DNA of 64,000 nt from Opitutia bacterium. Lineage in GTDB: Bacteria > Verrucomicrobiota > Verrucomicrobiia > Opitutales > Opitutaceae. Shown piece after piece: positions 11,407 through 14,440 of this stretch. Positions within the stretch are counted from its first letter, which is position 1; each line of letters opens with the position of its first letter. The position numbers were made by a program, and so were the translations under genes. Under the pieces are notes generated by a model. That model was given only the letters and a program-made list of their open reading frames with translations, was not told the origin of the DNA and searched no databases. The stretch spans positions 1 through 64,000 of the forward strand of contig CANGCX010000002.1 of assembly GCA_947452315.1 (NCBI GenBank), given 5' to 3'.

Positions 11407-12207
11407 ATGACTGACAAGCTCACTGAAATCATGACCTGGAAGCGCCAGGAAATCGCGCATCTAGTGCGCCCTGTGCCGCTCGAGGAGTTGCGTGCGTTAC
11501 ACTCCGCCTTACCCGCGGTGTCCTCTTTTGCCGGCGCACTCCGCCGGTCAGATGGTCAACTGGCCGTTATTGCTGAGATCAAGCGGCGATCGCCCTCGGC
11601 TGGTGCTATTGCTACGGGCATCGCTGCGCCCGACCAAGCCGTTAAATACCGTGCCGCTGTCGCTAGCGCTTTGTCCGTACTCACCGACGAAAAATATTTC
11701 GGAGGTACACTCGACGACCTTGTCGCTGTTACTACGCACCTCCGTCAGTCCCCACCCGCACTGCCCTGCATCCGGAAAGATTTTTTCGTTCACCCAATTC
11801 AGGTCCTTCAGGCCCGCCAAGCAGGTGCTAGTGCCATCCTCATCATCGTACGTGCGCTCAACGACGGGGAAATAACCGCTCTCTATACCGCAGCCCAAGC
11901 TGCCGGACTGGACTCTCTTTTTGAGATTCATAACGAAAAGGAACTCACTCGAGCTCTCGCCCACGGAGCAAAGATCATAGGAGTTAATAATCGAGACCTC
12001 GCCATTTTCAAAACTGACCTTGGTCTAAGCGAACGCCTAATTCCGCTTTTCCCAGAACACATCATCGCCGTCAGCGAGAGTGGCATTCATACCCCTGCTG
12101 ACGCGGCTCGCGCACGTGCTTGTGGGGCTCACGCCGTACTCGTCGGTGAGGCGCTTATGAAAACGCAAGATCCTACCGCTTTGATTAAGTCTTTTCGCGC
12201 CGTTTGA
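11407..12207 (+). CDS. trpC: Indole-3-glycerol phosphate synthase
   Basis: Closes the indole ring in tryptophan biosynthesis (CdRP to indole-3-glycerol phosphate). The 266-aa TIM barrel shows the signature AEIKRRSPSAG, LTDEKYFGG, RKDFFVHPIQV, EIHNEKEL, IIGVNNRDL and SESGI. The ATG at 11407 (MTDKLTEIMTWK) is chosen; the longer frame from 11317 adds an unrelated arginine/phenylalanine-rich stretch. No other trp gene is nearby. It heads a plus-strand run: 20 bases to the membrane protein at 12228, then rsmA. Confidence 0.95.
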   Translation: MTDKLTEIMTWKRQEIAHLVRPVPLEELRALHSALPAVSSFAGALRRSDGQLAVIAEIKRRSPSAGAIATGIAAPDQAVKYRAAVASALSVLTDEKYFGGTLDDLVAVTTHLRQSPPALPCIRKDFFVHPIQVLQARQAGASAILIIVRALNDGEITALYTAAQAAGLDSLFEIHNEKELTRALAHGAKIIGVNNRDLAIFKTDLGLSERLIPLFPEHIIAVSESGIHTPADAARARACGAHAVLVGEALMKTQDPTALIKSFRAV

Positions 12208-12227: not shown

Positions 12228-12587
12228 ATGCCCAAAATGACCAGACTGAACGCCGCAGGTCTGCTACCTCGCCGCGAATTCATCCGACGTATATGCCGCA
12301 GTCTCGCGGTCGGGGTTGCGTTGATTACCGTTTCACTCATGATCGGTATGGCTGGGTATCACTGGCTCGGTGGCTTGGCTTGGATTGATGCGTTTTTGGA
12401 TGCTGCGATGATTCTTTCCGGTATGGGCCCGCTTTCTCAGCTCCACTCCGATGGAGTCAAATTGTTCGCTGGATTCTACGCCATTTATTGTGGCATCGCC
12501 CTCATCAGCACCGCGGGCATCATGTTAGCACCTTTGATTCATCGCTACCTCCACAAATTCCACCTAGAGGACGATACCAACGATTAA
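12228..12587 (+). CDS. Small two-TM, ion-channel-like membrane protein
   Basis: A 119-aa protein with a positively charged N-terminus, a first transmembrane helix (about residues 24-46), a short hydrophobic re-entrant-like stretch WIDAFLDAAMILSGMGP (residues 52-68), and a second helix (about 77-105) that ends in APLIHRYLHKFH. The order TM-pore loop-TM and residues such as W-DAF, KLF and YAIYCG resemble the Ion_trans_2 potassium channel module, but the TVGYG filter is replaced by LSGMGP (63-68). It sits between trpC and rsmA with gaps of 20 and 3 bases. Function is not known; potassium selectivity is not expected from the sequence. Confidence 0.72.
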   Translation: MPKMTRLNAAGLLPRREFIRRICRSLAVGVALITVSLMIGMAGYHWLGGLAWIDAFLDAAMILSGMGPLSQLHSDGVKLFAGFYAIYCGIALISTAGIMLAPLIHRYLHKFHLEDDTND

Positions 12588-12590
12588 ATC

Positions 12591-13439
12591 ATGCCGCTTT
12601 CTCCCACCGCCACTCGTGATTTGCTCGTCACCCTTGGTCATCACCCAAAACGAGCGCTCGGCCAAAATTTTCTCGTCGACGGCAACATAGTCCACAAATC
12701 CCTCGCGCTCGCCGGCGTCGCCCCCGACGATACGGTAATTGAGATCGGACCCGGCCTGGGAACTCTCACCGAAGCGCTACTCGCTGCTGGAGCCAACGTC
12801 TACGCTGTAGAACGTGACGAACGCCTTTTCGCACACCTCACCACTACGTTACTGCCCCAGTTTTCAGACCGCTTACATTTACTTTTTGGCGATGCCGTAG
12901 AACACCCACTTGCTGGTTACACGCCTTCATCCTCTGAGGTTAATTTCAAGGTCGTTGCGAATCTTCCGTATGCCATAGCCACACCTTGGCTTGACGGAAT
13001 TCTAACTGGCCCTTTGCCCTCTACGCTCGTGCTTATGCTGCAGCAAGAAGCCGCACAGCGCTACGCTGCCGCCCCAGGAAGTAAATCTTTTGGCGCAATC
13101 TCGATTTTTCTCCAAGCTGCCTACTCCATCGCGCCTGGTCACAAAGTGCCTGCCGCCTGCTTTCACCCGCGGCCTGACGTCGAATCGTATCTACTCAATC
13201 TCGTGCGTCGACCCACCCCATTTATCTTCGACAGACCAACAAAATCCGTCATCCGGGGCTGCTTTCAACAACGCCGTAAACAGATCGGTTCCTTACTACG
13301 GCACCTAGTACCCCCAGCCATCGGCGCACCTTGGTTGGAACAACTCAGTGCCGCCGGACTCTCAGCTCTCAGTCGACCTGAAGATATACCAGTTTCAGTC
13401 TGGCAACACTTGGTAGTACCACCTGCAAGTGCTGCTTGA
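12591..13439 (+). CDS. rsmA: 16S rRNA (adenine1518/1519-N6)-dimethyltransferase RsmA (KsgA)
   Basis: Dimethylates two adjacent adenines in the 3' hairpin of 16S rRNA during small-subunit maturation. The 282-aa protein carries HPKRALGQNFLVDGN, the SAM-binding IEIGPGLGTLTEALLA, VERDERL and the catalytic NLPYAIATP motif, then the C-terminal helical domain. It begins 3 bases after the stop of the channel-like gene, implying co-transcription. The ATG follows an A-rich stretch without a Shine-Dalgarno sequence. Confidence 0.95.
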   Translation: MPLSPTATRDLLVTLGHHPKRALGQNFLVDGNIVHKSLALAGVAPDDTVIEIGPGLGTLTEALLAAGANVYAVERDERLFAHLTTTLLPQFSDRLHLLFGDAVEHPLAGYTPSSSEVNFKVVANLPYAIATPWLDGILTGPLPSTLVLMLQQEAAQRYAAAPGSKSFGAISIFLQAAYSIAPGHKVPAACFHPRPDVESYLLNLVRRPTPFIFDRPTKSVIRGCFQQRRKQIGSLLRHLVPPAIGAPWLEQLSAAGLSALSRPEDIPVSVWQHLVVPPASAA

Positions 13440-14191: not shown

Positions 14192-14440
14192 ATGTCGCTC
14201 GGCGGTTTCATCGCATTTTTACTGATTGGTGCCATCGCCGGTTGGCTGAGTGGCGTCATAATCAAAGGCCGAGGATTCGGCGCCTTGGGTAATATCATTG
14301 TCGGTGTGATCGGGGCGTTTATCGGCGGCTTCCTGTTCAACGCAGTTGGAATTTCAGCCAATGGGCTGCTAGCCCAATTCTTATTCGCGACTGCCGGAGC
14401 CCTACTGCTCGCATGGCTGCTGAGATTCATTAAAAAATGA
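14192..14440 (+). CDS. GlsB/YeaQ/YmgE-family small membrane protein
   Basis: An 82-aa protein with three hydrophobic helices, rich in glycine. The family pattern is clear: GAIAGWLSGVIIKGRGFGALGNIIVGVIG is split between the first two helices, and the third (LFATAGALLLAWLLRFI) ends the protein. Members are often called transglycosylase-associated proteins and are stress-induced in some bacteria, but the molecular role is unknown. The stop overlaps the start of the acetyltransferase by four bases (ATGA, 14437-14440). Confidence 0.9.
   Translation: MSLGGFIAFLLIGAIAGWLSGVIIKGRGFGALGNIIVGVIGAFIGGFLFNAVGISANGLLAQFLFATAGALLLAWLLRFIKK

Follow-up and report, generated by a model that had tools for sequence, protein, structure and literature searches.

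A small pore-loop channel-like protein encoded between trpC and rsmA carries a conserved GMGP sequence at the position of the potassium-channel filter

Overview

Our study identifies a family of small membrane proteins, spread over several bacterial phyla, in which the pore module of cation channels is kept and the selectivity filter is replaced by a different, nearly invariant sequence, GMGP. The member from which the analysis began has 119 amino acids and is encoded in the window, by which we mean the whole stretch of DNA that was analysed (64,000 nucleotides). With moderate confidence, we propose from the homology, the predicted fold and the conserved residues that such a protein is a minimal two-transmembrane (2-TM) pore-loop cation channel, a homotetramer that is probably non-selective and whose histidine-rich inner mouth may sense pH or metal ions. 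The filter of K+ channels is a textbook example of a sequence that fixes function, and a family that retains the pore fold but has fixed another short filter across phyla provides a natural test of which residues selectivity needs. At about 120 residues and with no large regulatory domain, these are also small proteins to express and reconstitute, and their conserved histidines are a candidate gate that can be tested directly. The fixation of both filter and histidines throughout the family should surprise a channel specialist; everything functional is inferred.

The gene and its locus

The following genes were identified in this part of the window:

11407..12207, + strand: trpC (indole-3-glycerol phosphate synthase), upstream neighbour; Pfam IGPS, E 5.8e-76; the ATG at 11407 was chosen here as its start, the listed open reading frame opening at GTG, 11317
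12228..12587, + strand: small pore-loop channel-like open reading frame, 119 amino acids, ATG to TAA; translation and purifying selection
12591..13439, + strand: rsmA (rRNA adenine dimethylase), downstream neighbour; Pfam RrnaAD, E 9.7e-43

An earlier reading made from the sequence only had placed the open reading frame 12228-12587 between trpC and rsmA with a 3-base gap to the latter, and both the coordinates and the Pfam matches of the neighbours agree with it: 20 bases separate the trpC stop from the channel frame, and 3 bases lie between the channel stop, which ends at 12587, and the rsmA ATG at 12591. On the opposite strand of 12228-12587, stops interrupt the one frame that was translated. 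Comparison with the three closest relatives gave dN/dS values of 0.034/0.487 (L002), 0.026/0.768 (L003) and 0.030/0.560 (L004), that is, ratios of 0.03-0.07, similar to those of the adjacent rsmA; because these values are low against all three, the frame is a gene under purifying selection, and we consider it a real gene. Further downstream, 3' of rsmA, positions 14192-14440 encode another small membrane protein, with a match to Transgly_assoc (PF04226, E 4.3e-11).

A filter sequence fixed throughout the family

Relatives were collected by two routes. Searching the genome collection by pattern returned 266, and the 80 best of these were retained; since the pattern peptides (e.g., AAMILSGM) could favour the filter motif, a profile search of whole genomes (profile A1, 52 rows) was added. 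Altogether, 157 related loci aligned to the window protein over most of its length, and the resulting alignment of 158 rows, 155 of them distinct, spans identities to the window protein from 22% to 95%, with a median of 48%. Its conserved features, set on the predicted structure of the window protein, are as follows:

12270..12371, + strand: TM1 helix, residues 15-48 (AlphaFold model), with conserved G40, G43, Y44 and H45 towards its end
12381..12416, + strand: pore helix, residues 52-63 (AlphaFold), with conserved W52, D54, A59, M61 and L63
12417..12434, + strand: filter loop S-G-M-G-P-L, residues 64-69, at the place of T-T-V-G-Y-G of K+ channels (register, conservation, loop length)
12450..12581, + strand: TM2 (inner) helix, residues 75-118 (AlphaFold), with conserved K78, F80, G89 and P102
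12540..12563, + strand: HR..H..H motif at the inner end of TM2, H105, R106, H109 and H112 (conservation)

The sequence-only reading had described the filter as altered relative to TVGYG and reading LSGMGP (residues 63-68, positions 12414-12431), and the alignment bears this out and shows it to be conserved in that form. At residues 65-68, GMGP occurs in 154 of the 158 rows, and GAGP, GEGP, GQPV and TQNL occur once each, so that a G-x-G-P loop is kept in 156. The route of discovery has little bearing on this result: GMGP is present in 73 of the 75 rows found only by the profile, in all 80 found by the pattern and in 120 of 124 at 80% non-redundancy. The residue that precedes it is more variable (S in 94 rows, G in 50, T and A in 7 each). 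The TxG(Y/F)G filter of K+-selective channels is absent at residues 65-68 from all 158 rows, and the family's filter does not match a TVGETP-like CNG sequence either. The altered filter is therefore the rule of the family and no local oddity. Outside the filter, G40 and G43 are present in all 158 rows, Y44 in 154 and H45 in 126; D54, K78 and F80 are near-invariant too, as are G89 (155 of 158) and P102 (158 of 158).

Homology to the pore module of cation channels

Special attention was given to the question of fold. The AlphaFold model of the monomer, built on the 52-row alignment, has a mean pLDDT of 89.7 and a pTM of 0.74, with helices at residues 15-48, 52-63 and 75-118; the predicted order, TM1, pore helix, loop and TM2, is the arrangement of a 2-TM pore module and agrees with the TM-loop-TM topology that had been read from the sequence. 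Searched against PDB sequences, the family profile found NaK2CNG-type chains best (E 2.8e-4), followed by other NaK chains, 5cbf and TASK2. The window sequence alone found nothing significant there, its best match being a flagellar regulator at 0.071, with NaK chains from 0.79. Alignment by hhalign to the pore domains of nine ordinary pore-loop channels gave 98%, E 2.3e-13 and a score of 79.8, against at most 17.6 for 50 block-shuffled versions and 12.4 for the reversed one; this E-value is flattered because the nine target channels had been found with the same profile, and the PDB search is the independent test. Of these targets, only L149 and L151, the latter a clear Ion_trans_2 by Pfam, carry the full TIGYG filter, and the others have TVGY, TVGI, TVGD or PVG forms.

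Structure comparison led to the same kind of protein. All 50 of the matches listed by Foldseek are pore-loop channels, with probabilities of 0.99-1.00 and E-values of 0.023 and up, none of the PDB matches reaching E<=0.001. With VIA, 4zbm matched over 95 residues with Z 11.8 at 5.4 A, and MthK (3ous) over 81 residues with Z 11.1 at 3.2 A; it is important to note that the rmsd among the matches listed ranges from 3.0 to 7.7 A and that Z below about 13 may reflect only the common arrangement of long helices. A comparison with predicted structures of viral proteins gave, at E<=0.001, two potassium channel proteins of giant viruses, and we read these as a sign of shared fold, not of kinship. Neither of the outcomes named beforehand as telling against a channel, a predicted fold without a pore loop or homologues without the re-entrant segment, was seen, save that the filter letters are lost in 2 of the 158 rows.

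The resemblance to the Ion_trans_2 pore module claimed in the sequence-only reading thus holds as homology, given the PDB profile search and hhalign with its controls, although in Pfam the Ion_trans_2 (PF07885) gathering cut-off of 22.5 bits is passed by none of 52 members, the best of which reaches 20.9 bits (E 3.3e-4). For the window protein and the 52 members scanned, no Pfam or NCBIfam model reaches its cut-off; in NCBIfam, the window protein has no match and the 52 members nothing consistent, and PHROGs gave no match for the window protein. Taken together, the comparisons of sequence, profile and structure indicate that the family sits among the pore-loop cation channels, with NaK/NaK2CNG as its nearest relatives; the support is good for homology to the pore module but not for the exact geometry.

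Comparison with known channels

NaK and the engineered NaK2CNG, both non-selective cation channels, share with the family the 2-TM size and the order TM1, pore helix, filter and TM2, and they are its best match by both profile and structure. They differ in the filter, TVGETP or TVGDG in place of the family's GMGP(L/V), and identity is about 15-23% among the matches listed; NaK presumably also lacks the HR..H..H end. MthK and longer pore-loop channels (e.g., L105-L111 and L149) have a homologous pore module (hhalign 98%; VIA) but mostly TVG/TIG filters, one extra loop residue (9 of 9 measured) and long open frames.

Prokaryotic relatives of K+ channels with unrelated filters are described in PMC4607889: the NirBac channels, non-selective relatives of KirBac whose filters are unlike TxGYG, form oligomers consistent with tetramers and let monovalent cations pass. 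They differ in possessing a Kir cytoplasmic domain and in filters that vary between near relatives, whereas here one filter is found across phyla. That domain is absent from the window protein, whose 119 amino acids include a TM2 helix reaching to residue 118. TbIRK, as described in PMC5429665, is likewise a 2-TM channel with a signature-free filter, but it is eukaryotic, of Kir type, and K+ selective with GGYVG. Our literature searches on GMGP and channels found no such protein described, an absence that is unproven because most subscription papers were outside reach, and the literature yielded no functional test of any family member.

Filter register and loop length

In the profile alignment, G65-M66-G67-P68-L69 falls on T-V-G-E-T of the CNG-like filter, ungapped, and the loop from filter to TM2 is likewise ungapped against five NaK2CNG-type chains in the PDB profile alignment. 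Counting from the filter glycine up to the F of the K/R-x-F (or L) found at the beginning of TM2, 157 of 158 rows have 13 residues and all 9 of the ordinary channels measured have 14; consistent with this, hhalign places a one-column gap after the filter, and in the MthK rows of VIA one residue of MthK has no partner. For the ten CNG-mimic entries listed, VIA is mixed: one residue stays unpaired in five of them and none in the other five. By these alignments, the filter-to-TM2 loop has the CNG length, the same as that of NaK2CNG and one residue below that of TVGYGD-type channels.

In strict correspondence, TVGYG then aligns to GMGP(L/V), which makes the earlier equation of TVGYG with LSGMGP right in substance: the S4 threonine is replaced by Gly and the Tyr/Glu position by Pro, and the second filter Gly position is occupied by Leu or Val, with Met once among 81 rows. 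In TM2, G89 lies no more than one residue from the glycine positions of NaK and MthK, depending on gap placement, and we do not claim its identity with the glycine hinge.

The inner mouth

HR..H..H, the motif at the inner TM2 end, is as well conserved as the filter, with H105 in 155, R106 in 154, H109 in 156 and H112 in 155 of the 158 rows. If the gap is put in the loop (VIA, offset 5 at the match end), MthK I84, A88, E92 and E96 map to residues 89, 93, 97 and 101. In two studies (PMC6879586, PMC12703655), I84 touches the S4 threonine, A88 serves to gauge how far the inner gate opens, and rings close to the pore entrance are formed by E92 and E96. H105 and H109 extend the i+4 series 89-93-97-101, H112 is on the same face (at 100 degrees per residue, the three point to 60, 100 and 40), and the conservation moment of residues 94-113 lies at 63 degrees. 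From this we infer that the histidines line the inner mouth and face the pore, an estimate that drifts with length and in which a shift of one residue is a turn of 100 degrees. By the same reasoning, G65-G89 appears to take the place of the T59-I84 pair of MthK.

Two divergent members have lost the filter. L143, from Proteus mirabilis, and L148 align over their full length with GQPV and TQNL, respectively, at the GMGP site and Gln at G89, and both keep P102 and HR.LH.WH. As judged from these rows, the inner-end motif is more durable than the filter. L143 (2464-3864; record NZ_OL790811) is flanked on either side by a universal stress protein gene (Pfam), for which no match was found at any other locus among those searched. 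The record NZ_OL790811 is filed as a plasmid and is 4.08 Mb long.

Proposed function and alternatives

The reading that we favour, a small cation channel, would work as follows. The subunit would assemble as a homotetramer, in which GMGP(L/V) within a loop of CNG length may form a flexible filter with fewer binding sites. Little selectivity is to be expected of such a filter because the S4 threonine and the second filter glycine are lost and the loop has CNG length, and monovalent cations (Na+, K+) would pass with little discrimination; the engineered NaK2CNG is non-selective and has sites S2-S4 (PMC12376597). H105, H109 and H112, on one helical face that continues the pore-lining stripe, would place rings of histidines at the inner mouth, and the binding of protons or metal ions by these rings could set when the pore conducts. 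A bolder version, which we regard as only tentative, is that this multi-phylum family combines a GMGP filter lacking the S4 threonine and the second glycine with a built-in proton or metal gate of cytoplasmic histidines and a selectivity mechanism of its own, and that it would rank among the smallest self-contained ligand-gated cation channels.

Since TbIRK is K+ selective without TxGYG, a change of filter alone is no proof of non-selectivity, and the family could instead consist of channels that achieve K+ selectivity by means of an unusual filter, the GGYVG of TbIRK being the precedent. The selectivity of TbIRK for K+ over Na+ exceeds 7 (PMC5429665), the near-invariance of GMGP suggests that exact geometry matters, and the window's genome (G000, 84% complete) has no match to Ion_trans_2 or TrkH. 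We nevertheless judge K+ selectivity unlikely, as neither the S4 Thr nor the second Gly is retained in the profile and hhalign register and the loop is as long as that of NaK2CNG, whose filter is non-selective. Matches to TrkA_N in the window's genome are weak, and at this level of completeness we draw no inference from them or from the missing TrkH about K+ handling.

A similarly low probability is given to a non-conducting pseudo-channel, in which the pore fold would be reused as a membrane sensor or partner and the cytoplasmic HR..H..H, binding a proton, a metal or a lipid headgroup, would be the working part. It is kept because the motif outlasts the filter in L143 and L148, which retain HR..H..H after losing GMGP and the TM2 glycine; these two count against the conducting reading and fit a non-conducting role there, and the universal stress protein genes around L143 point the same way. 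If the loop did not work, it would be difficult to account for the G-x-G-P retained in all the other rows. Finally, a helical hairpin of another kind, such as the MgtE, Gate or cytochrome b561 families to which weak matches exist, is very improbable: the best Pfam matches of the window protein, MgtE (0.014) and Gate (0.083), are both below cut-off, and these and other scattered weak identities (e.g., Ni_hydr_CYTB in 5 of 52 members) were rejected because they vary from member to member, Ion_trans_2 being the most frequent (20 of 52 at E<=0.1), and because the PDB profile search, hhalign with its controls and the structure comparison all give pore-loop channels.

Gene order around rsmA

From the tight gap, the sequence-only reading had suggested a conserved coupling to rsmA. 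The order trpC-channel-rsmA does recur at 21 loci besides the window; counting the stop codon, the channel and rsmA matches lie 5-11 bases apart at 18 of these and 14, 55 and 452 bases apart at the other three. In L005, L006 and L014, 450-510 bases lie between the channel and one neighbour, a space that in L006 is occupied by a DUF5069 gene (Pfam).

As a general feature, the coupling does not hold. A search for RsmA in 61 genomes of the window's family identified 30 loci, with the channel beside rsmA in 5, window included, and not in 25 (three of which have no trpC in the stretch either). Among the 25 genomes without a channel at rsmA, 5 carry a member elsewhere and 20 have no scored member; the latter include G300, a genome of the window's genus that is 96% complete, in which about 60 bases and no channel lie between trpC and rsmA (locus L113) and the profile search found no family member anywhere. 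In a Limisphaerales-rich set of 19 loci, a pyrD-like frame is upstream of the channel, with Pfam DHO_dh confirmed for one. No universal neighbour emerged when flanking frames were clustered by blast, which gave lineage-specific sets, with flank lengths that differ between loci and many antisense or shadow frames passed over. A general coupling to rsmA was therefore rejected on three grounds, namely the absence from G300, the members carried elsewhere in 5 of 25 genomes and the position of the Limisphaerales group downstream of pyrD. Given the varied neighbours and the absence of the gene from G300, the link to rsmA is one of family-level gene order; the adjacency is good for shared transcription and is not evidence of shared function. 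The slot between trpC and rsmA (L006:3510-3941; L117, L127, L133, L140 and L141) is occupied, depending on the genome, by the channel, by a DUF5069 gene, by both together or by neither of them; DUF5069 was assigned by Pfam for the L006 copy only, the other copies being alike by eye.

Distribution of the family

By profile search, which scored at most 11-15 candidates per genome, members are present in at least 23 of the 288 genomes searched in the window's phylum, at least 5 of 398 in the phylum of a Hyphomicrobium, at least 35 of 297 in the phylum of L077's genome, titled Acidobacteria, and at least 38 of 296 in the phylum of L056's genome, titled Bacteroidetes, where five short weak matches were left unread (G1194, G1096, G1190, G1321 and G1116); each count takes in the centre genome, itself picked as a carrier of the gene. 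Members were split by score from other pore-loop channels, which the same profile also finds at E 1e-7 to 1e-3. The family is widespread across phyla yet patchy. Named strains that carry a relative include Hyphomicrobium sp. CS1BSMeth3 (L040) and Prosthecomicrobium pneumaticum DSM 16268 (L068). In a tree of 81 rows, the phyla are intermixed, with 10 changes against a least possible 5 and a shuffled mean of 22.1, in a tree of few columns and unsettled bootstrap, which suggests gene transfer between phyla. No match was found in phage records at E<=0.01. The plasmid collection has matches in 4 of 72,556 records, and both records annotated under the match say 'hypothetical protein'.

Several individual loci deserve mention. 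Fragmented copies or copies with internal stops, which suggest gene decay or else sequence errors, were identified in L104 (G124:C62), G913:C46:6712-7025 and G1135:C1:1043313-1043552. In L106, what appears to be a truncated second start of a pore-loop channel gene (592-756) lies about 0.9 kb 5' of the full copy (1477-1836). On the Thioclava nitratireducens plasmid NZ_CP019438.1 (L142, 2856-5271), a member with a GGEGP filter lies 3' of a patatin-like phospholipase gene, and its end overlaps the start of a mechanosensitive-channel gene by 4 bases.
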